From Bolinopsis microptera (taxonomy: Eukaryota > Ctenophora > Tentaculata > Lobata > Bolinopsidae): 64,000 bases of DNA. Under the pieces are notes generated by a model. The model searched no databases. It saw only the letters and a list, made by a program, of their open reading frames with translations, and had not been told where the DNA came from. The position numbers and the translations under genes were made by a program. How positions within the stretch are numbered: the stretch's first letter is position 1; every line of letters starts with the position of its first letter. Shown here one piece after another: positions 274 to 57,200 of the stretch. The DNA is taken from positions 1,939,375 through 2,003,374 of the forward strand of contig NC_087072.1 in NCBI RefSeq assembly GCF_026151205.1. Reading direction: 5' to 3'.

Positions 274-3200
274 GTGCATTCCTTATCCCTTATTTCATCA
301 TGCTACTAGTAGAAGGTTTACCCATGATGTATGTGGAGATGGCTATAGGACAATACTTCAGAGGAGGAAGCGTTGTGTCTTGGGAGAAAATACATCCAAG
401 TCTAAAGCGTTGGCCGATTGAGAAATACCCAATAAGTACTTTATCCATGCTAACGTTGGTGTCTTGGACGTCATAGTACATCGGTGGTGACCATTTGGAC
501 TGTCATGATCACCGTGGGTTGTGTACTTGCTTGAAGCACAACGTAGGCTCATATTAGGACATACATTCAGAGGAAGCAAGGTGGTCGTGATCTTGGATGA
601 CAAATAACTTATCCAAGTCTAAAGGGCGTTGGTACTCGTACCAATGTAGACATTGTATATGTCCAGCACCATATATCGCCCTATAAATACAAACATAAGT
701 TATCTTATACATAATCACAATATCTTCAACAGGTGTGTTGTGTACTCTTTCTGTACCATTGACTTATATCCTATGGTTAAAAACAGTTGTCCTCAATTGT
801 ATATACACGGGTTATCATGCATTGTACGAAATTAGTAAAATTTTGAGGCCCCCAAAAAATGCCATTAAAAAAACGTCCCATTTTTTTTTATCACCCGTTG
901 ATTATACAATATCGTAATAGTACATATAAAACTGTGATATTCAACTTCGTATATTGTCTTCTAAAGTCACAAATAGTGTGTACGTCATGACAGTTGTGTG
1001 GTGATACCGTGTTTACTCTGTACTACTTACGTCATGCAGTGTTGGACTCATACTACTGGTTCTCTTTAAGGACCGTAAATCAGATCTTTTTTTACTGTGT
1101 CATTCAGTGTGTAACGTTGCTGTGTATTACGTCATGTACTCTATTAGTTTGTTGGTTTGAAGTAGTTTACTTGGCTCTGTTGCAGTATTTTTATATTTTA
1201 GACAACGATGAATAATCAAACGATCCAATCTAAACAATTATGTTTTCAGGACTCCACCTTATGCAGGGTGTGATTATACAGATGACGTATGCTGTACTTA
1301 TGATAAAACTCTATACTACTGGTATGCTGTTGTTCTCAAGGTACGTACGGTAGTGTGGTGACGTCATGATACGTAGTGTGACGTCATGACACGTGGTGTG
1401 ACGTCATACTACTGGTATGCTGTCGTTCTCAAGGTACGTAAGGTACTGGTAGTGTGGTGACGTCATGACACGTGGTGTGACGTCATGACACGTGGTGTGA
1501 CGTCATACTACTGATATGCTGTCGTTATCAAGGTACGTGATGGGCGTAATATGCAGATTCTTTTTTTTAAAGCTTAGTTTTCTATTCTAGTTTAAGTTTG
1601 CTTGTTTTATTTATTTATTTTTTCTATTCTTTGTTGGTTGAACTATCTATTAATTAAAGGCAAGGTTGCAGTTATGTTTATTTATTTTTAAGGACGATGA
1701 ATAATCATAATGATACGAAATGAAACGAAACAAAGTATTTATTACCCGCTGCTATGCGACAAAGATGTAATATAAAATATAATAAGTAAATAAATCGCTG
1801 TAAAACTATACACATTCGTTGACGTAGAGAATCATGAAAACTATGTAGCTGGCAGTATTTTGAGGAATAAGATTATTCCAACTAAGTTACTAAGCCATTC
1901 ACTTAATTAAATGTTACTTATAATTTAGTCAATAATGTCTAACTAATATACATTTTGTATGCGAACATCCAAGACTGTAGTTTCAACCGTATCAATAAAG
2001 ATGTTTGCCATTTTGAGATAGCGTTCCTGCCATGTCCCATTTGAGATAGCATTCTCAATAAACGGGAGAAGGACATGGCACAAGCTGTCAGTAATGGTTG
2101 GACATGTATTTTAAACAGTGATTATGTTGTTCTTAAGACTTAACATATACGGTTCCAATATCATTCCAAATAAAATCAAGACCTATTTCTTCCATGAAAA
2201 CGTCAAATCGATAAGGGGTATCATTCTCGTTACTGACTTCATCGGAAGGTTCCCTTTCTGGTTGAGCTCTCTCACCAGACATATCCATGTTACGTGCTAC
2301 ATCCCCGTACACAACTCTCTGCTGCATCAGTAGAAGCATTTGTGAAGCATGACCCATCGCTTCTTGCTTATTTTCTATGTAGGGACCACCTGTTTCGTTA
2401 GGTGGTGAAACTGGAAACAGCCCCCGTGTGATCATCCAGATTTCATCGAAGAACATGCTCATTTCAAAGATCAACTTGTCCATGTGATCGAGAATAAGGT
2501 TTTCGTATATGGTGCTGTGCCTCTTTGTCTGATCTATTATCAAGCGCTCCGTGGATTCTAACATTCCCTTAGTCTGCAGTCTATCAGCAAAGACATCTTC
2601 TACTTCTTGCAGGTATTCGGCAGACTCGAAGTAGTCCATATAAAGTCTAGGACTACTACCTTTAATTATTTTATTCGTCAGAACGTCTGAGTAAGTGTCC
2701 ATGAACTCTTCCTCGAGCAGTTCGGAAACACCTAGAGCCTCGAAACCGTAGACTAAAGTACCAGACGTCGTATTGAGAAATTGTGGCGTTTCGGTAAGCA
2801 GTGAGAAGCAGTTCCCAATCACGGTTCTTTCTTCGCGATAACAGAAATCATGCCTGTCGATCTTGCTAGATAAAACTTTCGGCTTCCTTATATTGTCCCA
2901 GACCTCCATGACATCAATCTCGAACATGGTTCCATAATAGGCGATAGCAATACCTTGCCTGAAGATGTCCCGGCAGTAATTAGCGCAATCAAGAAAATCC
3001 GAACAATTGTCAACGGCATCGTTAGTGAAAATTCCTGCAAGACGTTTATCGACGTAAACTACCAATGTTTCTTCCAAGAATGCTAAACTCCATGAACAAG
3101 GGGGCAGTGTTTCATCACTAACGCACAGAGGTGCATCAAAGATTGTTGTTTGAAGTTCCTTAAAAGATCCACAACCCTGCAACGAAACGCTTACCAAACC

Positions 3201-6200
3201 ATTATGGTATCCGAGGGTGAGCAACTTTGTAATAGGGTAAACAGCTGCCTTAGATTTGGAAGAATCTATAGAAATGGCAAGGACATGTTCTATGTTTGAT
3301 CGATCCTGTCCCTCGATCTTTAGCCCTTCCTCGTGCTGTTTTGACATGAAAGTCTTCGAGTTACTTTTGAAGTAAATGTTTGCAACAGAATTGTTGAAGT
3401 TCATAGGAGGAGACTTAATGGAAAGTCTTGGATGGCCACTAGGATTTCCCTTGATTTCAATCTCGGAGAGGGTTAGGTTTATCGGAACGGATTTTCCCTT
3501 GTATCTATCAATTTGAATGAAGATTCTGCTAGCAATGTAGCCACCGCAAGAGCTTGTCAACTGATAATCACCCTCATAATCGGTCAATCTTGACATTTTC
3601 GATTCATAATCAACCGGGTCACAGGCTATTCTCATATCAAACCATTCCAGCGACACTCGAAGCTGGTCGATCAAACGAGATTTGTCCCCTCCGCTGACAG
3701 AGTTGCTTACATGCATGATCACGTGACCAATGTAAATATTATCTGGTAAGATTAAAGCAATCCAGGTGGGAGCCTCATCTGATCCAAGAAGTGAGCAGAG
3801 GGTCTTCGTGTCTCCATCGAGAAGGTTGTGGGAGGGGAATACTTCAGTCTCTGGATTATATCCAAAACTTTCCATTTCTCGTTGTTGATCGCATATCCTC
3901 GTTTCTGGCATGTCATCGTTCTCAAATAAGCAGAACTGAAACTTAATGAGTTGTGAGGTTACAGCCACAATGGGATGCACATTGCTAGTTTGTATTAAAG
4001 GAAATTCTTTTGGATGACTGTCGGAAGCTCCTAAATCTCGTTTCATCTCAGCAACTGCAGCAACATCCGCTCTATATATATAGTATTCTCCAGTTACTCT
4101 AGCCCATGTTGGGGTAAATTGAGTTCCAATTTCATCCGCTGTGAAGTCACGGGAGTCAGAGGTTAAGGTAGGCTGTTCCCGCTGCCGGGAGTCAGAGGTT
4201 AAGGGTGTCTGTTTCCGCTGCCGGTTACCCGTAGCAGAGGTTAAGGGTGTCTGTTCCCGCTGTTGGTTACCCGGAGCAGAGGTTAAGGGTGTCTGTTCCC
4301 GCTGCCAGTTACCCGGAGCAGAGGTTAAGGGGGGCTGTTCCCGCTGCCGGTTACCCGGAGCAAAGGTATAGAAAACTTCCCCTTTGTCAGGGAAGTTAAC
4401 GTGTTCCATTTCTCTCCTAAAGTTAAAGGGAATGGTGGGATCAGCAGGAGCATCTTCTAATCTTGAAGGTAATGGTAGGAACTCTTCTGCGGACTTTGAA
4501 AAACCTTGCTGGTCGACATTACTATCAACCAAAGACTCACGATGATAGTCACGTTTACCGTTTTGGTATATAGAGTAGGAACACTCTACCCAGACAAAGA
4601 AATACAACAAACCAATCATGTTCTCAGTTAAAATAACTGCTTCGTGACCAGAAACAACATTAGCAAATTTGGTTGGATATGCTTCCCTTCTAAATGGATC
4701 TTGTCGTGCATAAGATATCTAAATGGTCCTTAAAATCCATTTCATCGTTTCCATTAACTTGATTTAAATTTCAGGCGACACCATCAATTGACGACACTGG
4801 AAACGGTCCAGCATGGCATTTAGTCATCTTTCTGATTTTGGCGTGGATAGTTACGTATTTGTGCGTGTTCCAAGGCGTGAAGAGCACTGGAAAGGTAAAA
4901 TGAATCTAACACCTAAGAGATCTTTCTAACAGTAAATCGATTTTGATTGCTAGAAGCAAAGACGATTTCCTCGAAAGCAAATTATATAATAATGAAAAGT
5001 ATTCTTAATTATTGTATAGCTGAATTTAGTAACACCTCTTGTTGATACACAGTAACAGGTCATTCGGCTTCAAATAATTAAAGTTTAACCCCAAATAGAT
5101 AAAGTTTATGATATTTATAAATCTCCCATCAAACTCTAAAACGCTTTCTGAGAATGGTTCAGCTGTTTCTAACCACTCAATTACAGGCAGCGTATTTCGC
5201 GGCAACGTTTCCCTACGCTTGTCTCATTATCTTACTGATAAGAGGGGTAACACTAGAGGGTGCTGAAATTGGACTCAAAGCTCTCTTTACTCCTCAGGTG
5301 TGTTTGAAGTGTTGTTTCCAAAGCAAATTTTAGGACGGCGCTTAAACCTTATTTTACAGTTCCAAAGTTATTGTTAAAGAAAATCCATGAATTAACATAC
5401 GAATCATTCATATCTACTCAGATTCTGACTGCAGTTTAACGGTAAAATTATCGTATTTCAGTGGGAAAGGTTGGCAGATCCAAACGTTTGGATTTCCGCA
5501 GCAACACAAACATTTTTCTCTCTTAGCCTGGGTTTTGGAGCTCTTGTCGCATTCGCTTCTTTCATGCCTTACAAGAATAATATTACTCATGATGCTATAC
5601 TTGTAGCAACAGTCAACTCTTTCACATCGGTGGGTTGAGTTTTATTTGCATTTAATATTATCTATATTATATTTTAAACTTGACGAAATCCCCCCGGCAA
5701 CTGATTTATAGACAACTTCAATCGACATTTTATTGGCAGGTTTTAGCCGGATTGTGTATCTATTCCATCCTGGGATTCAGATCGTTTAAGACTGGGGTAT
5801 CAATAGATGACGTGAGCGCTGGGTCGGGACTAACTTTTGTTGCGATAACCGAGGCCGTTACTCAGATGAACGGAACGCCCTTCTTTGCTTTTGTTTTCTT
5901 CTTTATGCTCTTCAATCTGGGTATCAGCAGCCAGTTTGGTAAGTTTGGGGTAACTTGGTGATACATTTTAGAATTTCTATTATTATTGCGACCCCCACTG
6001 TATAATGATCTGAAACAATACATAATACATAATACATTATACATTATACATTATACATTATACTGCAGGGACTTTAGCAGGGTTGGTAACCCCACTGTAT
6101 AATGATCTGAAACTCTTCGGAAAAGCGAGAAAAGAGCTATGTGTTGCTATTTTAGCGATATTTTTCTGCCTGATAGGCTTACTATTCACACCTGGTAACG

Positions 6201-8461: not shown

Positions 8462-11400
8462 CTAAACTTTGGAATCGTCATTATTCTGAGTTCCGAAGCC
8501 GGCGTAAACTTTGGCAATGTTGTCCAATTCGGAGTCTACGCTGCCCTTGTCCAATCTGGAGTCTAAGCTATCGTGATCCGGACTTTTGTTGACGATGTTC
8601 AGTGCACCACCAGCAATGTGTTCAGTCATCTGTACGATTACTGTCGGCCACAGGAACAGACAGATTATGAAATCTGTGGAACATTGTTATTAGCTTTAAA
8701 CTTACTGTACGATGTTTTCTGGCAAAAACATAATAAAATTCTCCTAAATCTTTAAAATTAAGTGTCCAGTTATTTATGCACATAATCGGCTCTAAACCTG
8801 CAAATTCTCTGATACTTCTGAGACTTATAATTTTGTATCATGGGGATAACCCAGTCACCAGTGGGCCATATATTCACCCTCAGGTGCAAGTTATCTCAGC
8901 TAATAAATACCCTAAAGACTTCTTTGTGACCTTAAACGAAGCAAATTTAATTACAAGTTATCAATAAACATGTTTAGTAATACGATTACTTAATAAAACA
9001 TTCGTTAACTTTTTCTGTTTATTGCCATATTTAGGCAATATGTTTATTGATAACTTGTGAATAAATTAGCAGATTCGGTTTTGTCTAAGACCACCCAGAA
9101 GTCTGTAGAGTGTAGGACCTCTGAGCGTTTTTGGTTGTTCATGACTGGACTACTAGTGTCAGTCATTGATTTGAACCATTAATGTTATCAGTTATCAGAT
9201 CACGTTTTGAAATTTAATATTCCGATGAAAGAAGGGCCGTTATTAGTATTATCAGTCCACCTGACCCAGTACATATTAACAATAAAACATTATAGAGTGT
9301 CTCCTAAAAACCCCAATTATGACTGACCTGCTATCAAGTTGCCAGGGATTTTGCAGGCTATTCTGAGAAGCACTCGTGCCCCAGTGACGTAGAACACGAA
9401 GCCGAGGTAGCAGGTCCAGGCAATGGAGGAACTACCTGGTATCCCGAACTGTATCTCTATCGCGTAGAAGACAGGTAACCCAATCAGAAAGATGGAAAGG
9501 GTGATCTGGCGGGGGAATGTCAGTAAATACCAACAAGATTAAATTTAAAAATTGTTACAGGAAAGTTTCATGATTAGGCAATACCCAGATAGATAACTTA
9601 AAGTTAACTGCACTGAAAATTAAAATAAATATTTGAAATAACTGAATAATATATAAGGAGGCATAAGTTTCGGGGTGTGATTACTGATTAAAATTTAGAT
9701 TTCTTGTACCTGCCACAACTACACTAGTTACCATGACAACTACACTAGTTACCATGACAACTACACTAGTTACCATGACAACTACACTAGTTACCATGAC
9801 AACTACACTAGTTACCATGACAACTACACTAGTTACCATGACAACTACACTTGTTACCTGCCACACGAAAGCGTGGTCGTTCCCGTTGATTCTAGCCAGA
9901 CACTTGCCGCAGTTGTACGGTCCAAGGAATATGTTCTTCAGCGTCTCTTTCATCAACCTCGGCTGTTGGGTTCAATTTGGTGAAGTCTGTATTTTCATAG
10001 GACCCACTCTATAATGCAGTAGGTAGTGACGTCTCTCAATTCAACAAACGATATGTTACTTCGTAAACTTATATACGTACACAGTCAGACAAATGTTCAA
10101 TTGGACTAAATTTAAGAATAAAATTCTCAACTTATGGTGAGGCTTTATTACCTGCCATGTGGTGACGAAATCCAGTAAACCTATAGAGAAGGCAGGGTCC
10201 TCGTAATTCTCACCCCCTTCCGCGATCCTTGCGTCCTTGGTAAGTGCCACGTATATCGACACACACAATATATTAAGAATGAGAGTGTAGGGGAAGGCAG
10301 CCACTATACTAGCGGTCTGGATGGCCACTAGAGCTGACTCACCGCCTGCTGCGAGGAGGGAGGTTGCGCAGGCCCCTTCCACCATCGCCCAGAATATTCT
10401 CTGTGAAACTGGTGGTTCCTGCCAAGGTACAAATTAGTCAGTAGATAAGTACGAAGGAACATAATTACAACACTGATTACTGTTATATATTGTTATATAT
10501 TACTTAAGGTTGAAGATTCAAGATTGCCAAATTGAAAAAGAAGATAAATTTGAGATTATTAATTGATATTCCGGTAAGGTCATCTGCAAAACAGTGGACC
10601 CTGAAAGTTCATCAAAACAGTGGACCCCGAACCTTTGAAAGTGGCGGGACTAATTATTATCATTCATCACGAATTAAAGGGATGAAATACAATACGAAAT
10701 GGCACTGAAGCATTAATAAGTTGACAAAATCCAATTTGAACGGTCTATCTGTGAGACTCACGTTATCACCGTTGCTAGCCAGAGTGTCGATTATAAGAGA
10801 CCCAGAGTCACTGCTAGTTAGAAGGTACAAAAACAGTCCTATCATGGATACCACCGAGAGAACAGTACCGTAGATGTCTCCGTAGGATGCCATGAGCAGG
10901 AACCACATAGCCTCCTTGTCGTGACAAGATAGTCTCGTTATCTGCTGGTTGTTGAGCTTTAGTGTTGATCCGTACAATCTTGTTCCGTCTATCTGAGGGA
11001 GTAATGATATGTGTCGTTATCAATTGGTTATACTGCTGATTATTATATCTATTAAATGACTAGGGTGGTTACGTCCAAGTAATGTTAACATGCAAAGAAC
11101 CAACATTATGAATGAAAACTTATTGAGCTCTCTCAGCTTTCTCTATATATCTCCAGAGAATGATGTGGGAGCTTACATTGTCTTTCAAATCAGCAAAGTC
11201 GAATTCAGTTTTGTTGATAATTCCCGTCGAGCAGGGATTGCAACCCCCTTCTGCGCATATATATTCACCCCATTGCTCTTTGTCACCCAATATTACTGAA
11301 AAATTGATACATAATAATATTAGACTCGGTAAAATCTGACTGCACGACAAATAAAATACACAAAAATCCCTCTCAATCTAACAAAAATCATTTCTAATTT

Positions 11401-14400
11401 TATAATAATAACGTCAAATTTCTCCAAAAATACAGAGGCAAAGGGCTCAAAATAGAACGACAAAAATTACAAAGCTTACGATTATCCCCCATGGCAATTT
11501 CAGCTTTCGCGACGTTCCAGTTAGGACAACAGAGCCCATGTTGAGCAGCGACACGTTCCATCTTTATCCCTGAACCCCCGAAGACAGTGATCCAGAAGAA
11601 CGAGAACAGGACTGGGGCGGTGAGAGAACCTTGTAAGAACTCTCTGATGGTCCTGCCACGTGATATCTTTGCAATAAAAGCTCCCACAAAAGGACTCCAA
11701 GCTATCCACCAGGACCAGTAGAACACTGTCCACTCGTTCATCCACTCGCTCTCTCCGTCCGAGGTGGAGTCCACTCTAAGCACACAATTGTTACTATAGT
11801 TACACTACTAGTTACCATAGTTACACTACTATTGTGAGCAACTTTAATTAATCAATTACATAATCTGCTGAAATCTTTTTTAAAGTAATGCCTGCAGACT
11901 TCTTAGAAGCTGAAGAACATAGAGGCAATTAGACATTCCTTAGAATTATTAACTCCCTGATCGGCATGTATCTGTACGATATTCCTTTATTGCCAATTCT
12001 GCAGAAAAAAGGTCTACTAATGACGAATCGTCATTGATGGACCTTTTCTTCTGTAGAATCTGCAATAAAGGAAACATTGACGATATATAAACTTTATCCT
12101 GGACCAAAATACATGAATTAATTTGATTTTTGTCTATTGAAAGATTATTTGTTTCTGAAGGTCATTTGTTTTGTCTGATTAATCTCCGTACGAGGTTATA
12201 AATTATCGTCCCTTCTTATAGTTAAAACAATATTTACCTTCCCCTGTCTATAGATCCGTGACTGGGGCTCATTTGTTCGAAGGCGTCAGTGTGGGTACCA
12301 AGCTGGATGATGTTTTGGATGTAGTATCCGAGCGACTGAAATAAACTTTCATTATCCACTAATTCAGATTTATTCAGATTTCAGATACCAAGCTAGAGTC
12401 CCACCTTTGTTTTCAAATTTCAAAGGTTTGTACATTCTCAGAGTTCTGAATTAATTAAAAGCAGCTCCTAGGAGGTGATAATGGCGTCGTGAACCGAGGG
12501 GAGATTCTTTCGACCCTAATACATCAATACATTTCATATCAAACAGGACAAATTGCAGTTTAATGATCTAGACAAGGCAGCTTTAATTTTTTCCCTTACT
12601 CTTGCCGAAGGCAAAAAGACCGTAGGGAATAAGTAATCGGGTTTGGATATATGAGCTTTTGAGGTGGCCCGACGGCCCTGCGTTGATGACAAAAGTCTGC
12701 TCCTTCGCAATATAGAGCACTCCCCTATAATTATGTGTATAGGAAGCGTCTGTTATGCTGCGCGCGACGCTAGCCATGTGTTAATTAATTACACTTACAG
12801 TGAAATCCCTCCTTCGCAAAGTTATTTTCCTAAATTTTCTGGATTCATTAATTGTTGATGCGCGGCCTCTGTATTTTTTGATTTTGAGATACGAAACAGG
12901 TGATGCATCTTAAGCCGCACATAGATGCTAACACTGGACCTTTGTAGAATGTAGAAGAGCGAGTGCTTCATCCGGGATAGTTTCGCGTATTGAGAGTGAG
13001 ATGGAGTTAAGAAAGTGCTTAACTTTGTGGATGAAAGTGAGAGCTTAAGTATTAAATGTGAACAGCTGTAGATTGTCATCTCTGTAATTCTATTTCATGA
13101 AACCTGGGACTACTGATCTTATTCCTTTTATTGCTTGTTTAAAATAGTATATACGTTAAATTAAGATGAAAAGCCCCTCCCTACCAGAGACCAAGTCAAA
13201 ATCAAATAATTCGACTAATAAAGTTTTGAGCCAGCACCTGAATGAAGAGGTTGAGGATGTACTGAGGCTGGTCGAGGAACATGACAACCAACATTAGGAA
13301 CACCCCTATCATGAAACTGGCTTGACTTATCCGTCTGATTCCCCTTCTCAATCCTGAGAGAGTGATTTGTTATAACTTTATAACTTTATAATGTACATTT
13401 TGTTAAATTTATCTAACTGTTTCATCACTTTTTATATTGAAATATGTTATCAAATTTAAGAAAGTCTGCCAGCGCAACATTAAAGAGATTATAAATGTAT
13501 GACAGCTGCGATCTACGAGTTCACTTTTATGAAACACAAATTATGGCCATGACACATGTAATTGTGGAAACATTTATCAATATCATGACAGCTTGATTGA
13601 CGATCATGAAATTGAAACATTAATTGAAAACATGAAGTGTTAGTATGATGGTGGTAACATTATAGTAACTATAGTAACATTGTAGTAACCATGGTAACAT
13701 TATACAGTAAAACCCCGATTTACTGCAAACCCTGATTTATCGCAAACCCCGATTTACCGTGGCTATTTCCTTCCCCCAAATAGGGCTTAACATGCATACT
13801 GCCTGAGAAAATGCTGTAAGTCCATTTTTTCGAAATTTGAGATATTGGTACACACATTTTCAGGAGAAGGTTCTCTACAACTTAAGCTATGAACCACGTT
13901 ATCAAAATACTGTTTTAGCTGTCACGAAAGGCAGTAAGTCACACAAAACCTCACAATTTAGCACATTATCCCAAAACCTTCCCTGAGAAAAGGCAATAAG
14001 TACATTTGTACAGCAACTTCTCTGAGGGAACGTTTTCTGTTCCCTGAGAAAAGGCAGTAAGTCTAGACTTTATTTGTAGTTTTTATAGTTTGTGGCCTAT
14101 AACTTTCACAGTTTTAGTTGTATCGAAATAATTTCTATGTGGTCGTAATCAGCTCAGCAAGAAAAAAAATGTTGGTACTAATATTTCAAAATTAAAAGAA
14201 ATATTATTTTCAAAATTTTTGAACCTGAACACAAGGGTCCCCTCTTGTCTCTTGTGTGAATTATTGAAAAAATTTTTGAAAAATTTGTTGCTTTAAGTAT
14301 TGTATATTCAAATATTTTTCCTAAATTAATGTGTCTGACCGAGTTGAATACTATGCTGTAAAAATTATTCCAAAATATTCGATATTTAAGAAGTTATAGG

Positions 14401-17400
14401 CTTTTTGAGCGATAAATTATCTATTTTTCGTCAATATTACTCACTTTTAATGCACAGGAGGCCCATGACATAATTATAAATTTATATTGCAAAGATATGA
14501 TCAAAAATATAGAAATTTGTTGCGTTGACTTTAGGAATCGCTTGAAATCGATCTGATAAAAGTCCGCAATTCCCTCAGAAAAGGATGCAAGTTCAATGCA
14601 AATGGAAAAATAGTTTAGTTATTCTGGAGAAAAATTATTTTTATACATCAGTGTTGGTATGGCGAATTTATGCTTTTAAGCATGTTTAGGACATATGACA
14701 ATTTATTTATGCATAAATGTCAAATTTTTTTCCCCAGGGAACGGCAGAATAATGTGAACAAACAAAACCCCGATTTACCGCAAACCCCGATATACTGCAA
14801 ACCCCAATTTACTGCGGTTGTTTTTTTCCTCCCAAACTCCGCGGTAAATCGGGGTTTTACTGTAGTAACTATGGCAACATTAAGACATGAAGCTGCAAAT
14901 AAGGTTACTGTGGTATTATGAACATCGTTAGTACTGTCATGTACCTTGAGGGCCTGCTTCTCCTGGAAATTACATATTTTTCTCTAATAAACAGAATAAT
15001 CAAGTAAAACGTCTCTGTCGGACAAACAAATTAAATATAGTGATGAAGGGCTAAATTTGGCAAGACGAATCCGTGCACTGCAGTCCGTGCTTATCCAACA
15101 TTACATAATATACTGAACACAAAACGTGGTTATTTCGACCAATATTAAAGTTTAAAGGTTTAAACGTACCGCTCACTACGGAGATGGTAGCACAGAAGGT
15201 GATACTCCAGATAATTCCCATCTGGACCCGGGTGTGGACTGGAATACTCGGGATCAAGAAGTTTAGTCCTGCAGAATAATAAATTGCAATCAGTCATAGG
15301 ATTATATCCGTTCTCTTAGGATTATATCCGTTCTCGTAGAAATGTCGATACGTTATTCAGCTATTTATTTCCATTAGAATCTGTCTTCACTGAGTCTATT
15401 CAGAAACAATCAGAAATTTGAATAAAAGAGCTGTTCTCTTAGGATTATATCTGTTCTCTTAGGATTATATCCGTTTTCTTAGGATTATATCTGTTCTCTT
15501 CGGATTATATCCGTTCTCTTAGGATTATATCTGTTCTCTTAGGATTATATCTGTTCTCTTAGGATTATATCTGTTCTCTTAGGATTATATCTGTTCTCTT
15601 AGGATTATATCTGTTCTCTTATGATTATATCTGTTCTCTTAGGATTATATCTGTTCTCTTAGGATTATATCTGTTCTCTTAGGATTATATCTGTTCTCTT
15701 AGGATTATATCTGTTCTCTTAAAAGGATTATATATGTTCCCCCCTTTATTTCTATTATCATGTAGACATTTTCTCAGGCTGTCCCATAAAAGCTCCAAAT
15801 TTGCTTCACTAATATAATAGAAATGTGTGATTAGGACTCAGATCAGTCATTTAGTTATTTTAGACTTTTAGAGTAAACAAGCTTTTGACGGACTTATAAA
15901 TCATGAGTCCAGAATAGGAGAGTAATATTATATTGCCGGTCGCTTTTTTACTTGCCAATTGCATTTAATCATATTTCACATATTATCGCATACGAAAGAT
16001 TTATTTTCTTTACACTATAAATATACAGTTGCAACCAATATCAACAATATAAATGATAAAAGCGTCGCAATTCAATTGATGATAGTTTTAAAATTAAGCA
16101 TTTCAAAAACTATAACTTAGTCAAAATTATATTTCAATCTTAAAAAGCGGGGTGATAACGGCTTCGTGAAGCAGAAAGCGTTACATATAATTTTGATGAT
16201 AGAAATAGTAAGTACCTGCATTAACTTGAATAGCTCCTAAACCAAGACTAGTGCACACTCCAAATATGGTAGTGATAATAGACAGAATATCAATAGTGTC
16301 TCCCAACCAACCGAATATCTGAAAACAAAGTTAAAATTATTAAAGCCGAGATCCTGTAACTGTAAGGTTTTAATAGATTAACAATTTTAGGATCAGAATA
16401 ACATTACGGCTAGAATTGATAAGAAGTTGAATAAATAATATTGACCGAATTAGCAAAATAAAACTCACTCGTTCACCGATGAGAGGGTAGAAGCAACTTT
16501 TCATGGTCAAGGGTAAGTCCCATCTAAATGAGGTAAAGGCCAAAATAATCCCAACCACGCAGTACACAACCCATGCGTGCAAACCTGCGATTAAATTTCT
16601 AGTAAACAGCTATCGTTTATTCTTATATCGATTTATATATCAATTTATAAAATCAAGTAATGACCAAATAGCCCCAATCGTCTTTAATAAATTAACTAAT
16701 ATACTTTATTTACTGAACAATTGCTTAGAAAATATACTCTGAAGGTTGGTGCTGATCAGTTTACTAAACCTGGTAATTGATATTGAATATAAATAACATT
16801 AATTATATTCGCGGAGATAATTTTTATTGATTGCTAAAATAAAGTTAACAGTTCTCTGTTATGATACTTAAAAGGTTTGAAGTTATTATGACAATTAATC
16901 TGTCTGTTTTAAACTTGATCAATGATCATTCGAATGTCAGAAAGGCTTCATTGTTGTACGTGTTCCTGTTATAGAGGCAAATTATTTATTAGTCGCATTC
17001 TTCGTAATATCACGAAGAATACGTACAGCTGTTGTTGTCAACATATGAGTATATGCTGACATCAACCTGTACGTGTTTTAATCTATTCATTACTTGAAAT
17101 AGGATTTACCATGAAGCCTTATAGGAGTAGAGAGTCAAGGCAGAGAAGATATCGGACACTGTTTTGCGGATGACATTGCTCTGATAGCGGATACTGTAAA
17201 GGAAGCAGAGTCGCTGATGCAAAAGGCAGAAAGGGTTGCTGCTACAGTGGGAGTTGGGACTTAGAATGAATGAAGGTAAAACCAAATTCATTACTCAGAA
17301 CATCAAGAATCCTGGTACCATCAAGTCCCTGGGTAACAGCACAATAGAGCATGTGGAAGACTTTACTTACCTGGGTTTTAGAATCAGAGACAGTGAGAGT

Positions 17401-24860: not shown

Positions 24861-24861
24861 C

Positions 24862-30290: not shown

Positions 30291-30298
30291 TATTGGTC

Positions 30299-30410: not shown

Positions 30411-30590
30411 CAGGTAATACCAGGTAACCAGGTAACCAGGTAACCAGGTAACCAGGTAACCAGGTAACCAGGTAACCAGGTAACCAGGTAACCAGGTAAC
30501 CAGGTAACCAGGTAACCAGGTAACCAGGTAACCAGGTAACCAGGTAACCAGGTAACCAGGTTACCAGGTAACCAGGTAATACCAGTGCTC
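30411..30590 (+). repeat. Tandem array of 8-bp CAGGTAAC units
   Basis: About 20 copies of CAGGTAAC, each a near-consensus 5' splice site (CAG|GTAAC), following the exon-like end at 30410. Flanks are GTAATACCAG on both sides. Confidence 0.95.
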
Positions 30591-39375: not shown

Positions 39376-39598
39376 CAGTGGGTTACTATGGTTACAGTGG
39401 GTTACTATGGTTACAGTGGGTTACTATGGTTACGGTGGGTTACTATGGTTACGGTGGGTTACTATGGTTACAGTGGGTTACTATGGTTACAGTGGGTTAC
39501 TATGGTTACAGTGGGTTACTATGGTTACAGTGGGTTACTATGGTTACAGTGGGTTACTATGGTTACAGTGGGTTACTATGGTTACAGTGGGTTACAGC
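39376..39598. repeat. 19-bp minisatellite (TGGGTTACTATGGTTACAG)
   Basis: About 11.6 nearly identical copies; two units have ACGG for ACAG. All three + frames are open, giving Trp/Tyr/Gly-rich shadow frames. Each unit ends TTACAG, a weak acceptor-like string. Confidence 0.95.
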
Positions 39599-45999: not shown

Positions 46000-46070
<71 letters not shown>

Positions 46071-47472
46071 GAAGCCCTACCCAGAGGCATTACTCGGCAG
46101 TCGGCACTAACGCTTTAAAATCTTCAATTATAATCAAATATAAATATATGCACACGATGTATAAAATATGATTACGCTATTAGCAAATTTAAATAGTGAA
46201 TCAAAACACATTAGATGCCATTCCAAAAGTACATTTTATCAGTGTAATCCTGACAGTTCATAATATCTGTAATCATATATAGATATATGAGCATATTCTG
46301 CATCTTGCTAAAATCATAGCATTGCGGGAATCAAAATGAACTTAGATAATCGTAGTAACCGAATGTATCAACCAAAATTGAACCTCAGTCATTATCGAAA
46401 TAACTTGTGTTATCAAGGTCCTAAATCCTGGAAAATTGTGTGCTCCTCTGCAACCTGTTTCAAACACATTACAATAGCACCAAGCTTGAATGCCAAAAAA
46501 CAAGGTTAAAGGAATTATTTCTTAAAGTTCAGTCGTACAGCGATAAAGTTGTATGGTTACCATTAGACAAATCGCCAAAACTTTATTTTACTGTAATTGC
46601 AATAAAATTGGATCCCTACTGCAAAACTTTACTCTCTGAAATAACTGTACAGCGGTGAATTGTGGACAAAGGTTGCAGCGGCTTTACCGAAGCAGTATGA
46701 TCAAACTGAGAATAACACAATATGTGGAACAGAATAGTAGTAAATGAGTAAATGTGGCACTTTGCCGTAAATTGCCTTTTAAAAGTTTAGAGGGTCAATT
46801 AAGTTGCTGTAAGGGACCGTACACATACAATATTTGCCATATTTTTACCTTTTCAGACCGTTCACATACAATGTTAGCCATATTTTTACCTTTTCAGCCC
46901 GTTCACATGTACAATGTTTGAAATATTTTTACCTTTTCAGACCTCAGCCCTCCCCTTAACGCATTACTATTGTGTAATAATTACATAGGAGTAAGCTTTT
47001 CCAAACTGCCCTACTACCCTATAGGCTGCCTTACGTCATATATAAACCGTCCTTCAGTACAGTACAAGAAAAATGGATTTTTCTCCTGTGAATATTTTTG
47101 CAAATTGCCGACGTTTCGTAGCATCGTCAGAAAACTGACTATACTGATTGATTTTTGCGGTATTGAATGTTATGTTTAATTTCTAAATTATTATCGCCAG
47201 GATATGTAATTAGCACTAATTACGTAATGCAAAAAGTAGTCCGTCTACCGTGTCCTGAAGAAGCTTCGTTAAGTTGCCATGGTAATTTCGACCATTTGTA
47301 AAAAATAATCAGAGGACAAAAACCTGTTTTAACTGTTCTCATTCCAATGAGAAAATATATACTGACAAACGATTTTAGGAGCAAAATATTAAGAAAAAGA
47401 AGTTGAACTTCCCTCAGGGAAGTAAGGCAGTAGGCTAAATGAAATGGAGACGAAAACGCAGGCAAAACAATA
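43386..47472. other. Gene-poor spacer with microsatellite and acceptor-like triplicate
   Basis: Includes a (GATT)n microsatellite at about 46001-46069. Small frames at 46440-46658 and 47220-47495 have no recognisable motifs. See the separate entry for 46817-46940. Confidence 0.45.
46817..46940 (+). repeat. Three copies of a 41-bp unit ending in a strong acceptor-like tract
   Basis: Unit CCGTTCACATACAATGTT...CATATTTTTACCTTTTCAG; each copy ends with pyrimidine tract plus TTTTCAG. After the last copy comes ACCTCAGCCCTCC, which I cannot tie to a coding exon. Confidence 0.8.
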
Positions 47473-47853: not shown

Positions 47854-50738
47854 TGAACCGATCCAGCTGCCAGCTAGGCGTGGCTTTCTTGCTGATTTAT
47901 AGGTTTCAATTACACTATGTGTATATCCTTAGTCAATCAATTATCTACTGTCAACTATGGAAAGCAACCGCGTCCATCATTAATCATTTTGTTACCTCTT
48001 CAAAAAGTGCAGTTGCGACTTAATTAATCATTCCACAGTACACACAGTACATTTGATACTTCGTAAGATAGATTCAAAAGATGGCAAATAGGACAGTCAC
48101 TGTTGGAAGTTTGGCAGCTTTTCAGGTTTTAAAAGACGAATATGACTAATCACGACATTTTAACTGATCCTATGGCCATTGTCGAAATGTCGAAAATATG
48201 AAAAATGTAAAATGTGGTCAAAGAAAATTGTTCAGTCACTGTGACAAATACCCTACCTCTATCACAATCAGCCTCAGTCTCCCCATCACAAAGGTCGACA
48301 ACGGTTCGGTTTATCCTCCTCCCGAAACCTCCACAAAATTAGTTCCCAGCCCAGTAAGTGAGTAGATTGGTACAAATGTTGCCAAGCACTCAGCTGAATT
48401 CCAGTCTCTAGTCCCTTTTTGAAGCGTTCATGAACCTACAACTTTTAAGTATTCAGGGAAAGGTACAAGACATAGATATAGAGGGGAACCAGCCGAAGAG
48501 ACGTCTGCTAAATTATCCACATAACCAAATTGAGTCCCCCTCTCTCTCTCTCCCTCTCTCTGGACAGCTCTAGAAGTACCATTTCATAACTTTAAGAATA
48601 GGCCGCGTTGAACAAAATTCCCAAGCACTTAACATCCTAACAAAACCAACATATACAAGTCAGGATTATAAATGTTGCGGACCCCGTACATTTTATCGTG
48701 AGGATACAGCCAATGTCTGCCTTGGAATTGGATAACATGACCTGCTCACTGCTGTGAAACACCCTTCACTTTTTCTAGGTCTTTCCCGGAGATTATGTTT
48801 TAAAGTACTGTTGGTTATTCGTCGCTTGTACCAAGCATTGACGAAATTCCATGACACAAAAATGCCAACGGCGTTCATAAACTCGTGGTACATGAAGCCA
48901 AGTATTTGTAACTTCAGAGAGAAGTTCGGGTTGACTTTAAAATTCTCACGAGGAGTTGAAATTAACATTTTTAATCAACTCAATCATGGTCGCCCAGACC
49001 GATATACACTGAATCTGGCCCCCTCCCCCCTCCTATGCATGTTAGACAGTACCCTATATTAATATGTTTAAACATGAACCTAAGCCCAAACTTGTGCAGC
49101 TTTGATAGACGAGTTAAGGTGTCGGCAAACAAAAAAAGAAGGTAGCAGAAGGTTATAGCAGGGCCCGATTCAAGATTATGAGGTAGAGACTGTCAGGGAA
49201 ACATATTAGGCTCAGGAGAAGGAGGTCGTACGGCTCGTGTCATGACGTCACACCACGTGTCATGACGTCACACCACGTGTCATGACGTCACACCACGTGT
49301 CAAGATTATGAGGTAGAGACTGTCAGGGAAACATATAAGGCTCAGGAGAAGGAGGTGGGTCAGAAGAGCAGGGGAGATAATCAGGAGTGTGGAGAAAGAA
49401 GTGTTATCATTAATTCACTTGCCTCTGTAGTCTGTACTTGCCTCTGTAGTTTGTACGTACATTGCTGCTAGATGTTTAAAAGCATATTGTTAATTACATC
49501 CTCAATCTACGCCGTGAGAACAAGTTAATAATAACTGTTTGCCAGAGTTGGAAAGTATTGAAATCTTAGCCGTACGACCTGTATGACGTCATGACACGTG
49601 GTGTGACGTCATGACACGAGCCGTACGACCTGTATCAGGGATTATTATTTTGTGACCGAACGTGACCAAAGGAGTTAGAACTGATGATTCCAGACTCCTG
49701 ATTCCAGACTCCTGATTCTAGACTTCTATATCCTGCACGTTGATGAGAGTCTCCCTAAATTAAGGAGAAGTACAAATAAGAAGGAAGCTGGTAGTTATAA
49801 TGTGTTATCAAGACCTCTTTGGGAACTGTATAGAGACTTGAGAACGCTGGCCCCTTTAAACATGACACCACCTTCAACTTACAGGTCAATAAATGCAGAC
49901 TAGTTTGGAGCCACGGGACAAGCAGAGGAGTTTAAACTGTTCTCATCACACAGAGATAGATAGAAAGTGCATTAGATCCGATCTAATGTCGGAGTCTCAA
50001 TCGATCGATCTAATTGAGATCGATTGATTGAGACTCCGACTTTGGACTACTTTCAGAAGAAAATTTGGTGCTCATATAACAACATTAGGTATCATACGAT
50101 GACGAAAGTAAACAAAATATACTGACACATGTTAAAATGTCATAGGTCTCACTACATGCAGCGTGTTGACTCGAAAAGATGGGTGATCAAGGTGCAGCAA
50201 ATTTGAATGACTAACTAATGAATACCAATTAATTGCTGCTTCCACCATCATTTAGAGCTTGACACAACAACAATTCTGTACATGTAGTCAGCTCTATTTC
50301 GGCACAGGATCTCATCTATTTTTTTGTAACTAATTACTGGTTTTGCGATACACGTTGTCGTTAATGATAAACGATACAGTTTCCTTATCATTAACCTCCT
50401 TATTTTGGTGATCCTATCATTTTGGTTTTATGAATGGGAGATTCCAGCCATGAGTTCAAGTCTCAATAATACACATTGTATTAGTGGTTAAATCCTTCGT
50501 AAATTAGTTCGATACATATACATAGTAGGGGTAAAATTATCTCTTTCTACGAGGAAATGATGCTAACTAACTGAAATAATTACCTTTCTATTCAGCTGAG
50601 TTTCAAAATCATTGCAGTTTGATCAGTGATGAACTGTTACAGAAATTAAATTCAGCGAACACACATACCACACTTAAAAACATACAGAAGACATTTAATT
50701 GCACCTCCTATAACACTCCCGTGTGAACCACCCACAAG
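47854..50738. other. Gene-poor spacer with CRE/E-box repeats and hairpins
   Basis: At 49170-49226 and 49302-49358 a 55-base block (AGATTATGAGGTAGAGACTG...) is duplicated around three copies of CGTGTCATGACGTCACACCA, the inverse of the unit in the SLC6 intron; two more lie at 49583-49620. A CT-rich microsatellite lies at 48538-48562. Bases 49993-50040 form a long palindrome (CGGAGTCTCAATCGATCGAT pairing with its inverse). No gene seen. Confidence 0.5.
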
Positions 50739-50887
50739 CAGGGACAAAAGGAAATCGCGGCATGTACGGAATCGCAATTTTTCCCATTATTTGCGACACA
50801 TTTTATGTTTAGTTTAATATACCGCGAAATGTAATTCGCGGTATCGCGATTTTTGGCCAAAATATTCGCGAAATCCTTTTGTCCCTG
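50739..50887. mobile_element. hAT-like MITE, about 149 bp
   Basis: Left CAGGGACAAAAGGAAATCGC and right end, inverted, CAGGGACAAAAGGATTTCGC. Flanks CCCACAAG and CCCACAAC make an 8-bp target duplication with one mismatch. CAGGG termini plus 8-bp duplication are the hAT signature. Related ends occur at 60958 and 62476. Confidence 0.8.
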
Positions 50888-51092
50888 CCCACAACTTGCC
50901 CACAAGAAGAGCACTACAACATAAGCACACAAACAGTCCGAATAAAGAGCAAACTGTTCACCACTGGTCTGATTATTATCCGCACGACAAACGTTTACCT
51001 GCGAGACGAGGTGGACAAAGCCCTAAAAAGTGTCTGCCCCTCTTCTCCGTCTGCTCTAACTAGTAGAGGAGGTCACCATTATATCTGTATAA

Positions 51093-51274: not shown

Positions 51275-54200
51275 AAGTTTAGCACCCCGATCTAGTAAGT
51301 AGTCTCTGATCTCCTCGTGGTGACCGTCCTCTGCCTCATCGAGTGGTGTATGAGAGTTCCTGGGTATTACCATGGTTATTGGATATTGTACGAGGGTTCC
51401 TGGGCATTACCAGGGTCATTGGATATTGTAAGAGGGTTCAGTAGAATGACGCAGGTTAGTGTAGCTACTAACTTATTTAAGTTATGATCTTATTCATCAT
51501 TTCAATTATTCGAGGAGGGTATTCGAGGGTATATTAAGAGATCCTATATTTCATATATAATTGGTTATATTTTGCTTACAAATCGACAGGGTTGAGGAAG
51601 GTATGGAACTCGTTAACCAACACGTGCACAGCTGATAGTCTACCACCACAGCAAGCGAGGTGCAGCGCCGTTCTGCCGTCAAAATCAGCATGGTCTGGGT
51701 TCACCCCTCCTCTTATGTACTTCCTGTAGATTTAGAAATATATGTACAAGTGCGGATTACTTTTAAATGTTATTGAGTGAAACTTTGGGCTTTCTGTAAG
51801 AGGTAATTATAATTCGATAAAGATTGGAGTCCATTAATACCAAGCTGCACTTTAGATAATTTTGTATTAGTAGAACAACCACCCAGTGGCTCAAGCTGCA
51901 TGGTTTAGTTTGTACGAGGTGGGCAGTAGTTTGGTAGCAGATATGGGCAGGGCTGTTAAACACGTCTATCATATTCCCAACAGTACGGCGTATTATTACG
52001 GCGTATTATTACGGCGTATTGCTATTAGGGAATAAAACATTACGCGTATTATAACTCAATTAACAGCTTCGATTTTTTGGTAAATGGAAGTATTTTGATG
52101 GTCAGGAAATGTCGTTTTATTCTCAAAAACTGTTGATAAAACAGTTTTTTTTTTCATGTGGTCGCTAAACTAGCAAAGTTTGAGGACACCAAATGCTTGC
52201 TCAACAAAACAAACATTCTCCAAAGTTCATTAATAAAAATGGGGATAAAAAGCATTTGCCAGTTCAAACCTTATCAGGTAGACATCCCCACGCTCAGCAG
52301 CAAAAATAAGTTTGAACAGCTGGGTCTCCTCCGTATCGCAGATCATGAAACCTCGGGGGTTCATCTTGTTGGTTGGCATGTTGGACACTGTGTCATACTC
52401 ATGCAGCGCGAACAGTCTTGTCAGCTCCTGGTAGGAAGCGGCAAATTGGCAATTATAAAGAATAATAAAGTAATATCCCCAATAAATCCAGAAAATCTGG
52501 GTTTAACAATGGAAATTATTCATTCGTCTAGGGAAGTTGTCGGTTCGTCTAGGACACAAACAAAATTTCTTCGAGATGACTTAAAACTGAGTTGTCAGAC
52601 ATGACCTGCACAAATATGCTGGCAGAAGCACTCCTACTGACACTGGTTCACATTACTCACATACCTACAGGACAGCAGTGACCTAAGTTTTAACTTGGTA
52701 TCTAAGTCTAGGTTGTAATGAACGTGTAAACGTTTTCTCCGTACCTTAGCAAACATGATGCCGCGTTTAGAGTTGCCGCAGTCGTCAAGTAGAGGACCCC
52801 AAACACAAATTCCCATAATGCTCGGCACCACGATCAGTATAACACCAGTAGAGCTGGACTTTGCAGGCAAACCTATCTGTAGCAATTAACCATCTAATAA
52901 TGGATTTGTAAAACATTCCATACCACCAAAAAGATGTAAGTCGGAAACATAAATATGGAACGTAAGGAATCGGGAAAAACATACAAATTAACCTCGAAAG
53001 CCCATCTGCCACTGTAGTCGTAGAGACCACAGGAATGCATGGTAGAGAGTGTATCCCGGACACTGCTGGAGCTCATACAGGACGACTTGTTGAGGGGACA
53101 AACTCCTCCGTTAGCCATGGTAGCAGCGATTACGGAGCCCTGGTCAGTCGTTATGGACAGGGACTGTATCTGGAAGTAGAAGTCTAGAACTTCGTCCATG
53201 GGAGGAGAGGAGTCCGGGAACACCTGGAACACATTTGGAGATAAGAAACATGGGGGGGGAGAGGAGTCCGGGAACAACTGGAACACATTTGGAGATAAGA
53301 AACATGGGGGGGAGAGGAGTCCGGGAACACCTGGAACACATTTGGAGATAAGAAACATGGGGGGAGAGGAGTCCTGGAACACCTGGAACACATTTGGAGA
53401 TAAGAAACATGGGGGAGAGGAGTCCGGGAACACCTGGAACACATTTGGAGATAAGAAACATGGGGGGAGAGGAGTCCGGGAACACCTGGAAAACATTTGG
53501 AGATAAGAAACATGGGGGGAGAGGAGTCCGGGAACACCTGGAACACATTTGGAGATAAGAAACATGGGAGGAGAGGAGTCCGGGAACACCTGGAACACAT
53601 TTGGAGATAAGAAACATGGGGGGAGAGGAGTCCGGGAACACCTGGAACACATTTGGAGATAAGAAACATGGGGGGGAGAGGAGTCCGGGAACACCTGGAA
53701 CACATTTGGAGATAAGAAACATGGGGGGAGAGGAGTCCGGGAACACCTGGAACACATTTGGAGATAAGAAACATGGGGGGAGAGGAGTCCGGGAACACCT
53801 GGAACACATTTGGAGATAAGAAACATGGGGGGAGAGGAGTCCGGGAACACCTGGAACACATTTGGAGATAAGAAACATGGGGGGAGAGGAGTCCGGGAAC
53901 ACCTGGAACACATTTGGAGATAAGAAACATGGGGGGAGAGGAGTCCGGGAACACCTGGAACACATTTGGAGATAAGAAACATGGGGGGAGAGGAGTCCGG
54001 GAACACCTGGAACTCATTTGGAGATAAGAAACATGGGGGGAAAGGAGTCCGGGAACACCTGGAACACATTTGGAGATAAGAAACATGGGGGGAGAGGAGT
54101 CCGGGAACACCTGGAACACATTTGGAGATAAGAAACATGGGGGGAGAGGAGTCCGGGAACACCTGGAACACATTTGGAGATAAGAAACATGGGGGGAGAG

Positions 54201-57200
54201 GAGTCCGGGAACACCTGGAACACATTTGGAGATAAGAAACATGGGGGGAGAGGAGTCCGGGAACACCTGGAACACATTTGGAGATAAGAAACATGGGGGG
54301 AGAGGAGTCCGGGAACACCTGGAACACATTTGGAGATAAGAAACATGGGGGGGGGGGGGAGAGGAGTCCGGGAACACCTGGAACACATTTGGAGATAAGA
54401 AACATGGGGGGGAGAGGAGTCCGGGAACACCTGGAAAACATTTGGAGATAAGAAACATGGGGGGGGAGGAGTCCGGGAACACATTTGGAGATAAGAAATG
54501 ATAAGAATTAAAAAGTGCTACATTATCTATTAGATTGGAACCAGATTTTAGATTTTACTTAACGCAAACTGAGCACCCAAATAACTTTTTAGTTCTCGTA
54601 CCTTCTTTTTTCGAAGAGTGTGTCCGATAGACTTCTCTTTGTAACTCTGCTCCTTCTTTTTCAAATACCAACCCAGGTTAAAGTCCAGACTTCCTTCTCC
54701 CAGAATATCGTTGCATCTTTTCACTAGGTAGTCGAACCTTATTGGCATTCATTGCATTACAATTTAGCTTTGCAACAAATTTGAAGAAATTCAGGTTCTT
54801 TTGCGATAGTCAAAACGTGACAACTAGCGCTGGATGGCGACAACTAGCGCTATCCAGCGCTAGTTGTCGCCATCCAGCGCTAGTTGTCGCTATCCAGCGC
54901 TGGATAACGCTGGCCAGCGCAAAATATATATGTTCGATAATTGTCGCTATCCAGCGCTAGTTGTCGCCATCCAGCGCTAGTTGTCGCCATCCAGCGCTAG
55001 TTGTCTCTATCCAGCGCTAGTTGTCGCTAGATAGTTTGCGATGGCCAGCGCAACTGGCCATCGCAGAAAACAGTTCGATAACTAGCGCTGGATAGCGATA
55101 ACTAGCGCTGGATAGCGACAACTAGCGCTGGATAGCGACAACTAGCGCTGGCCAGCGCTGGCCATCGATAGCCAGCGCAAAATGTTTGCGATATTACTCG
55201 AACCGAAATTCATTTATACGTCTAGGCTCCCTTCGTTCGAGTTGAAATAAAAACGCCCGTTCTCACCTGTCTGGGATAGAGAGATCAGGTCTGAAGAGCG
55301 AGGCAATAACAATAGACCCCATAGCAACCATAGCATTGTGAGGTTTACCCTCCTCATTGAGTAGGATGTCTTCAGAGTGTACTCCGCTTGGCTCCCTGCC
55401 CACATGTTTGTAGACCTGGTCTCGTCCGACCTCGTCCTCTGTTAGAGCGAACAGGAGAGGATACATGCAGCTCCCTAGAGCAAACCTCTCCCGAGTCTGT
55501 CCCAGAGATATCCTGGGTAGTTTGGACGGAGTCATTTACAGTATTTAGATTTTAAGCATCGAAATTCAGCTCGTATAGTAATGGTGTCTAACAACATTTT
55601 ACTATATACAGCGAGACGATATTATATCTGTTACCATTTTATTGACAACATGAACACTACATCAACTTTAACGCAACTTTTCGCGAAGACCGTGAGACAT
55701 ATACCATTGAAACTTTTTCGGCTGAGTTAAATGTTTTTATTGCCTTTTGACCAGTATGAAGAAATAAAAAATTGGCCAAGGAATAAGAACTTTAAGTCCC
55801 GAAATTTGGACCCCCAAGTGGTAAACAAATTGTATTTTATTTTGACACCACTTTAGGGTTTCTGCTAGGAGAAAAGAGATAACCGCGACATAGGTACCTA
55901 AGGCTGGCTTCGTCTCATATCAGTACCAAAAGCGACAGTGCAACAGCAATGTGTCAACCCTTCGTGCTTTGATTCCTTGAACAGGAATCTTTAAAGCCTT
56001 TGGAAAATTGAATATTACAGGAACAAATAGCATTCTGAAGGTTTAAATGTATGTTCAAAGTAACTGTCTTAAGTTAAATGTTGACAAACCCAAACCCATA
56101 CCCATAAGTTTAGCATTATAGAGTGGAGCTGAGGGAATCATGCTGAATCCTGAATGAAGGTTGTCACAACATTCCTTACCCTACATCCTTACCCCGGCCC
56201 TACCTAGATTGAGCGTTATAAAGTGTTCAATTTGCAATCTTTTTATTATTCTTCGCAACTCACTATCTTGCTATATATAAAGCGAGACGATATATACATA
56301 CTTATACAATACATATTTTTATATATTATAAACAGTAGAGACTGGGGTCCCAAGGGTGCATGGAATATGATAAAATACGTCATCACGGATCGGGAAATTG
56401 AACGGCCATCCACAAAAGAAAAGCGGCCGCATTTCTTGTTTACTTACTGTATATAATGTTTCAGGGATTTCGGTACAGACAGCGGGTAACTGGACCGCTA
56501 ACCTTAGTCATGGATAAAGCATGTCAAGACTACTGGTGGGCTAATATCTGGTACATAAACAACCTGGTCCCCTGGAAAGCAACGGAAGTATGTGTGGGAC
56601 AGACATGGTCCCCTGGAAAGCAACGGAAGTATGTGTGGGACAGACATGGTCCCCTGGAAAGCAACGGAAGTATGTGTGGGACAGACATGGTCCCCTGGAA
56701 AGCAACGGAAGTATGTGTGGGACAGACATGGTCCCCTGGAAAGCAACGGAAGTATGTGTGGGACAGACCTGGTCCCCTGGAAAGCAACGGAAGTATGTGT
56801 GGGACAGACCCATGGTCCCCTGGAAAGCAACGGAAGTATGTGTGGGACAGACCTGGTCCCCTGGAAAGCAACGGAAGTATGTGTGGAACAGACCTGGTAT
56901 CTATCAGTTCTACCTCATCGCACCAGTCTTCGTAATGCTTCTCTTTTGGAAACCGTTAGCACGTTTGAAATTGTTGATGTTTTTGATTTGTTATCCTGGG
57001 GTGATTACAGTTTTTATTTCGTGCGAAGTTGGACGTTTTGACCGAATTTATGATGGGAATTAACTTTTTTAATTATGGTTGATTATTCATGTTTTCTGAC
57101 ACAACGGTAGAATTATTATTAACTATCCAAGCAATGAAGTAACTTCTCAGGGATAATCACCAGTGTTGCTGTTATTTTATCCAGTACATTAGCAACTGCT

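Follow-up and report, generated by a model that had tools for sequence, protein, structure and literature searches.

Why should minisatellite arrays sit on the exon boundaries of unrelated genes? In a 64,000-nucleotide stretch of the 264.65-Mb genome of the ctenophore Bolinopsis microptera (NC_087072.1, positions 1,939,375 to 2,003,374; hereafter the window), tandem arrays contain or abut splice junctions of an SLC6 gene, a BCCT gene and, twice, a glutaminase gene. A sequence-only reading had counted a fifth case, in an NRF-6-like gene, and had proposed a process that tandemly duplicates DNA at splice sites; the SLC6, BCCT and glutaminase cases held, whereas the NRF-6-like array sits inside one exon. 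As a general rule the proposal found no support among the arrays that we sampled, but a narrower form did, in which two dispersed minisatellite families lie directly downstream of 5′ splice sites (donors). The duplicated DNA is also well supported, though as direct target repeats flanking inserted minisatellites.

Dispersed minisatellites flanked by direct repeats

The SLC6 and BCCT arrays are built from units that recur across the genome. A 35-mer of family 1 (20-bp unit, SLC6) gave 520 matches genome-wide at 2 mismatches, family 2 (21-bp unit, BCCT) gave 163 at 3 mismatches and family 3 (8-bp unit) gave 4294 exact matches; the backwards control gave 0 in each case. Genomic loci (L-numbers; C-numbers denote contigs) were sampled from the first 100 matches listed per family, yielding 20 places for family 1, 20 for family 2 and 11 for family 3. 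This sampling left out two more C5 clusters of a 141-bp type (family 1) and one C12 array at 4232507-4233369 (family 2), and the 12 family-3 places analysed are a small fraction of that family. Counts exclude L004, L020, L028 and L032 as copies of L003, L019, L023 and L031, respectively, as well as two runs in the window, near 39600 and 47500, that were taken not to belong to the families.

We compared the best ungapped repeat between the 130-bp flanks of each locus with 1149 cross-locus pairs (99th percentile 13, maximum 65). Significant flanking repeats of 11-95 bp (p 0.021 or better) were found at 22 of 45 independent family-1 and family-2 loci (15/24 and 7/21, respectively), the weakest passing loci being BCCT (score 11) and L018 (13). 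Most repeats lay no more than about 10 bp from the insert; at L003, L007 and L031 one copy stood 25-52 bp off, and the composite L013 has gaps of varying size. Flanking repeats exceeded the null's 99th percentile (9) at 10 of 12 family-3 loci, the failures being the window copy and L071, where the array is split and inspection by eye shows a 23-bp repeat. Flanking repeats were absent from all 36 generic arrays tested in random genomic pieces and present at 5 of the 51 in the window; these five comprise a family-1 insert (49236), the SLC6 acceptor case (6018) and three apparently internal repeats. Start and end phases varied across the unit in 15 clean inserts, the shortest cores measuring 34-57 bp.

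Two neighbouring window inserts of family 1, neither assigned a strand, have this structure. One (49170-49356), with a TGACGTCATGACACGTGGTG unit at 49234-49305, lies between 57-bp target repeats at 49170-49226 and 49300-49356; the other (49568-49635) has the smallest core (34 bp, fewer than two units), between 17-bp copies of AGCCGTACGACCTGTAT at 49568-49584 and 49619-49635. Elsewhere, repeat and insert have expanded together (SLC6, L012, L013, L019, L040, L056, L074 and L079).

At the SLC6 donor, Tandem Repeats Finder (TRF) and reading of the sequence placed 2.4 copies of a 99-bp composite unit at 1313-1539 (plus strand). The exon tail and donor, GTTCTCAAG/GTACGT (the slash marking the splice junction), are present in three copies with a 99-bp period, and every unit includes a 20-bp sub-array of family 1, with inserts at 1357-1409 and 1456-1508 flanked by direct repeats of 40 and 36 bp. 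The exon (1250-1340, plus strand, ..TPPYAGCDYTDDVCCTYDKTLYYWYAVVLK; acceptor placed by reading) is covered by an open frame at 1212-1340 and ends at the first donor, AAG/GTACGT; the following exon, at 4775-4894, reads ATPSIDDTGNG.. The array-touching exon alone has no Pfam match, and the identity of the gene comes from other exons, which match PF00209.

The BCCT donor array (9715-9858, minus strand) consists of 6.9 copies of the family-2 unit CATGGTAACTAGTGTAGTTGT (TRF and reading). It begins exactly at the donor GGCAG/GTAACA, the donor GT providing the first base of the array, and is flanked on both sides by TACCTGCCACA, an 11-bp direct repeat (p=0.021). Here too the array-touching exon alone has no Pfam match; two other exons match Pfam BCCT. 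The duplicated piece contains AG/GT at SLC6, L019 and L024 and, by reading, also at L055 and L056.

Donor-side enrichment of family inserts

To place the inserts relative to splice signals, we scored 88 edges of 44 family-1 and family-2 loci, with two neighbouring window inserts merged. Donors of at least 6.5 bits with 35 open codons upstream lay within 25 bp of 11 of the 88 edges, against 1.98 expected, the inserts being enriched up to 25 bp downstream of donors. When donors of at least 7 bits were counted, the nearest bin held 7 versus 1.64 expected and the further bins to 300 bp held 1, 4, 6 and 4 versus 1.5, 2.9, 5.7 and 5.4, placing the excess in the nearest bin only. Acceptors were not enriched at the same edges (0 versus 1.4 expected at 8 bits or more; 3 versus 2.6 at 7 bits or more). 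Genome-wide, AGGTRNG within 25 bp pointed into family-1 arrays in 16 + 40 matches, about 14 places once clusters and copies were merged, and out of them in 2 + 2 matches at 3 places. For family 3 (11 loci), donors at 25-50 bp numbered 4 versus 0.35 expected, in three loci. Several family-2 arrays appear, on reading, to supply the donor GT themselves.

Protein matches support a number of these exons. Pfam matched 8 of the 20 array-side exons tried and none of the remaining 12, among them the single SLC6 and BCCT exons. Matched exons with a donor within 25 bp of the array were L005 (Ras), L006 (SPT16), L009 (adaptor), L021 (zinc finger), L023 (ABC), L024 (DAGK, below cut-off) and L033 (DBR1); L017 also matches Pfam and was not counted as donor-adjacent, its donor being about 50 bp off. 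Ten places found by the genome-wide pattern were examined: L051, L052, L053, L055 and L056 resemble exon ends, with Pfam support at L053 (ERO1, below cut-off) and L055 (MOR2-PAG1_C) and none at L051, L052 or L056, and reading recognised no exon at L054, L057 and L058 or at the outward controls L059 and L060. At L005, L023, L038 and L052 the intron continues, by reading, past the donor-abutting array.

Arrays in general and splice junctions

Does the donor-side position extend to arrays of all kinds? TRF returned 64 rows for the window, which merged at period 7 or more into 51 arrays covering 7978 bp (12.5%), and a random sample of 100 kb (ten 10-kb pieces) held 38 arrays over 5053 bp; the window is thus array-rich, and the combined set comprises 89 arrays. 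Junctions in the window (n=52) were curated by hand from homology and GT/AG signals, with RNA not used. Four junctions (five with NRF-6) fell inside arrays, against 6.4-6.5 expected by circular shift within the window (P 0.85 and 0.71, respectively) and 7.7 when the shift was restricted to gene blocks. Array ends in the window came within 15 bp of a junction in 5 cases (6 with NRF-6) versus 2.5-2.6 expected (P 0.10 and 0.04), and within 5 bp in 1 case versus 0.9. Near the 178 array edges of the window and the ten random pieces, donors of at least 7 bits numbered 7 inward and 7 in the outward mirror control, with 8.8 expected.

The junctions inside arrays, which had seemed too many for 64 kb, are therefore no more frequent than chance placement gives, and the array edges of the window and random pieces show no general donor excess. 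Tandem duplication at splice sites as a general process finds no support in this sample; it survives in the narrower form of donor edges of families 1 and 2. Two further arrays had been taken for donor-like and acceptor-like junction repeats, at 30411 and 46817, and neither could be confirmed as such. The first, a family-3 array of (CAGGTAAC)n at 30411-30590, has only a 7-bp flanking repeat, and the second, at 46815-46943, holds three 41-bp copies with TTTTCAG (TRF); neither has a strand assigned, and on reading no exon was recognised alongside either.

Arrays in which no filler was seen

The glutaminase arrays duplicate acceptors. A 52-bp unit is repeated 24.5 times at 53197-54482 (minus strand; TRF and reading), spanning the acceptor GTTCCAG/GTGTTCCC at 53223; each unit (TTCCAG/GTGTTCCC) joins 25 bp of intron end to 27 bp of exon start, and no filler was seen in it. 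The adjoining exon matches Pfam Glutaminase (2e-21, 52894-53223). At the last exon, placed by reading, 2.3 copies of a 40-bp unit at 51347-51439 (minus strand; TRF and reading) span the acceptor ACCCAG/GAAC at 51360, again with no filler seen.

The array in the NRF-6/acyltransferase-3-like exon (56565-56898, plus strand) has eight 41-bp copies by TRF, with copy starts spaced 41 or 43 bp. Because 41 leaves a remainder of 2 on division by 3, only removal of the array by splicing would preserve the frame. The exon is uninterrupted in two paralogs, L064 and L067 (INNLVPW..C.GQ.WYLANDMQFF). By reading, splicing from the first GAA/GTATGT, a putative donor, to CTATCAG/TTCTAC would restore the frame and would lose about 14 residues that the paralogs keep; a dead gene appears as likely as a spliced-out array.

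Origin of the arrays

We lean towards reading the arrays as scars of staggered-break repair, sometimes with a minisatellite as filler, that later expanded, and not as a dedicated splicing device. One nick in each strand, the two some 11-95 bp from each other, would yield a break whose overhangs are long; filling these in and joining the ends would then duplicate the stretch between the nicks, leaving direct repeats of the 11-95 bp that we observe. Between the copies, some two or more units, presumably copied from an existing minisatellite of the 20-, 21- or 8-bp families, may be captured as filler, and repeat plus insert, or the bare duplicate, would expand into an array, with the 99-bp SLC6 and 141-bp C5 units as composites of this kind. 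Such events would be tolerated at a 5′ splice site since the first copy preserves exon and donor, whereas immediately before an acceptor they would interfere with the branch point and pyrimidine tract; donor enrichment may arise from this tolerance, perhaps helped by breaks that favour exon ends. The plain 40-52-bp arrays of the glutaminase and NRF-6-like genes could be the same event without filler. Many family inserts have the hallmarks expected of a staggered break: direct target repeats on both sides, of variable length, and no fixed insert ends.

Several observations weigh against this interpretation. No significant flanking repeat was found at 23 of the 45 family-1 and family-2 loci, most of them long or diverged arrays, with the short inserts L002, L015, L016 and L022 also among them, and the high share of target duplications is itself unusual beside telomeric inserts (PMC2246262). 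For family 3, donors at 0-25 bp numbered only 1 versus 0.40 expected. A looser family-2 pattern, which also picks up other arrays and single sites, showed no asymmetry genome-wide (143 inward, 163 outward). The donor expectation was derived from random genomic positions rather than from the same introns, donor scoring at family-2 edges partly uses the array's own bases, and L006, L021 and L023 have donors that do not reach 6.5 bits.

Plain slippage, in which local DNA duplicates and expands and junctions are hit only through the wealth of arrays in the window and because duplicates at junctions are harmless, would account for chance-level junction overlap in the window and for the lack of general edge enrichment among the 89 arrays. 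The glutaminase 40- and 52-bp and NRF-6-like 41-bp units also contain no dispersed filler by reading, although no genome-wide search was made for them, and for such pure 40-52-bp arrays slippage is viable. It leaves unexplained why the same 20-, 21- and 8-bp units occur at many unlinked places and why the flanking repeats are unrelated to the unit, and is contradicted for the dispersed families; as an account of the whole we consider it unlikely. A second rival is insertion resembling retrotransposition, with minisatellite RNA reverse-transcribed into a nicked target by a long interspersed nuclear element (LINE), a Penelope-like element or telomerase. Variable target duplications, as in target-primed reverse transcription, and the absence of fixed ends are traits of insertion by such elements, and reading revealed a reverse-transcriptase-like frame at L066. 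Neither poly(A) nor a common 3′ end was seen on reading, however; sub-family variants, such as the 22-bp one of L051 and L060, suggest copying of existing arrays rather than of one template; and at 10 ends of 6 contigs we found none of the tested cores of families 1 and 3 (GGTAACC, GGTTACC or TGACGTCA), though a telomeric array was lacking there as well. We regard this route as rather improbable. A telomere origin of the units was dropped, the contig ends being uninformative.

The arrays might instead be functional. They could be kept near exons by selection for factor binding, and their motif composition, by reading, is compatible with that: family 2 carries GTTGTCATGGTAAC, which we take to be an RFX X-box, and family 1 carries TGACGTCA/CACGTG, presumably a cyclic-AMP response element/E-box, and the core TTGTCATGGTAAC recurs in other arrays. 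Flanking target repeats and a position directly at donors are both left unexplained by selection, which we consider very unlikely as the cause. Doubtful, too, is a further proposal, in which the 20- and 21-bp families are mobile minisatellites with active targeting to 5′ splice sites, guided by nicks linked to transcription or by DNA/RNA hybrids linked to splicing; they would take the place of the donor or provide it and, with the duplicated exon end, furnish the material for new introns.

Relation to known systems

The staggered-break reading has precedents. Duplications shorter than 100 bp have been attributed to fill-in at breaks made by nearby nicks on opposing strands, and Cas9-nickase breaks with 43-bp overhangs yield small duplications (PMC8355091). 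The likeness lies in duplications under 100 bp from overhang breaks; the arrays here differ in often having an ectopic minisatellite between the copies and in their later expansion. Break-repair intron gain, as modelled in Daphnia, predicts short flanking repeats (PMC3443670) and shares with our loci the direct repeats around inserted DNA and their reading as staggered breaks filled in before end-joining. Our loci differ in repeats that measure 11-95 bp and in a minisatellite filler that recurs, and none of them displays a whole new intron. The sequence-only reading had suggested a fit with the idea that duplication of AGGT-containing segments can create introns; for these loci, intron creation of that kind would be no more than a possibility. 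Of the systems compared, opposed-nick duplication and break-repair intron gain fit the arrays best, with a recurrent minisatellite as filler.

Other systems resemble the inserts in part. Introners are likewise dispersed, similar genic sequences, some with target repeats (3-9 bp), that take splice signals from target or insert (PMC9860276); they make whole introns, whereas the family inserts, with 11-95-bp repeats and no fixed or common ends, lie mainly on the donor side and lack the 3-9-bp target duplications and/or inverted-repeat ends that mark introners. Telomeric repeats inserted at mammalian break sites are also tandem repeats at breaks, with target duplications in 4.6% (rodents) and 16% (primates) of cases (PMC2246262), but the units here are non-telomeric as far as seen, and target duplication is common rather than rare. 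A study of intron borders has likewise read direct repeats near splice sites, 4-30 bp long with a mean of 11.4 bp, as insertion scars (PMC11782384); here the repeats flank minisatellites. Beyond those telomeric repeats (PMC2246262), we found no description of minisatellite insertion with target duplications in the literature surveyed, as far as the consulted portions go. Papers on Caenorhabditis elegans minisatellites and splicing (PMC4039745) and on ctenophore chromatin loops (PMC12221973) had, in the portions consulted, no bearing on the question.

Clear cases behind models of intron gain through break repair or tandem duplication are few, one source giving 5 and 188 unambiguous events (PMC3443670). 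A single genome with many events, both target copies kept and some at exon ends, makes frequency, size and splice consequence countable, and suggests a route by which minisatellites could spread without a transposase.

The SLC6 intron

The SLC6 intron separates YYWYAVVLK from ATPSIDD and has a length of 3.4 kb. It is missing from 5 of 9 paralogous pieces, which read through the site (L061, L090, L091, L092 and L093, of which L090 and L091 are a near-identical pair); L094 is ambiguous, and L095-L097 fail to cover the site. Since the intron has this length and hosts an 861-aa frame, it may well have arisen without the donor-side array.

That frame (2133-4718, minus strand) is intronless, nested in the SLC6 intron and without a Pfam match, and contains a 42-bp coding repeat at 4150-4367. 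Among the paralogs, L090 and L091 have an in-frame threonine/asparagine-rich repeat immediately ahead of the part that aligns with the intron site, and L097 has a further tandem repeat, open in several frames, adjoining an SLC6 paralog exon. Downstream, in the SLC6 acceptor region (5993-6113, plus strand), a 24-bp exon piece is repeated in the intron (5993-6016 and 6090-6113), and between the two copies lie a 7-bp minisatellite (6018-6063) and the acceptor at 6069.

Further observations

The BCCT gene has a second array near a junction, two copies of GTTACCATAGTTACACTACTA at 11790-11831 (minus strand), 11 bp upstream of the hand-curated acceptor at 11779. A family-2 array at L039:339-653 lies within an open frame and, on reading, encodes repeated YHDNYTG-like heptads. 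By reading, family-1 patches occur at three points of one Rho-like gene (L005, L062; C4:1044850-1046300): next to a donor, ahead of an acceptor and past the stop codon. A 22-bp sub-family variant is common to L051 and L060, and the core TTGTCATGGTAAC, which we assume to be X-box-like, recurs genome-wide in many other arrays with different units.

The unit at 39376 was rejected as a dispersed family, all 10 of its matches lying within the window. Window positions 17218-17933 resemble the unbroken 385-aa reverse-transcriptase-like frame read at L066 and gave no Pfam match; a retrotransposon label for them was dropped. A palindromic insert like a miniature inverted-repeat transposable element, with the sequence AGGGACAAAAGGAAATCGCG.., was read both at L055 and in the window at about 50740-50890, and at L055 it adjoins one copy of the exon-end repeat.

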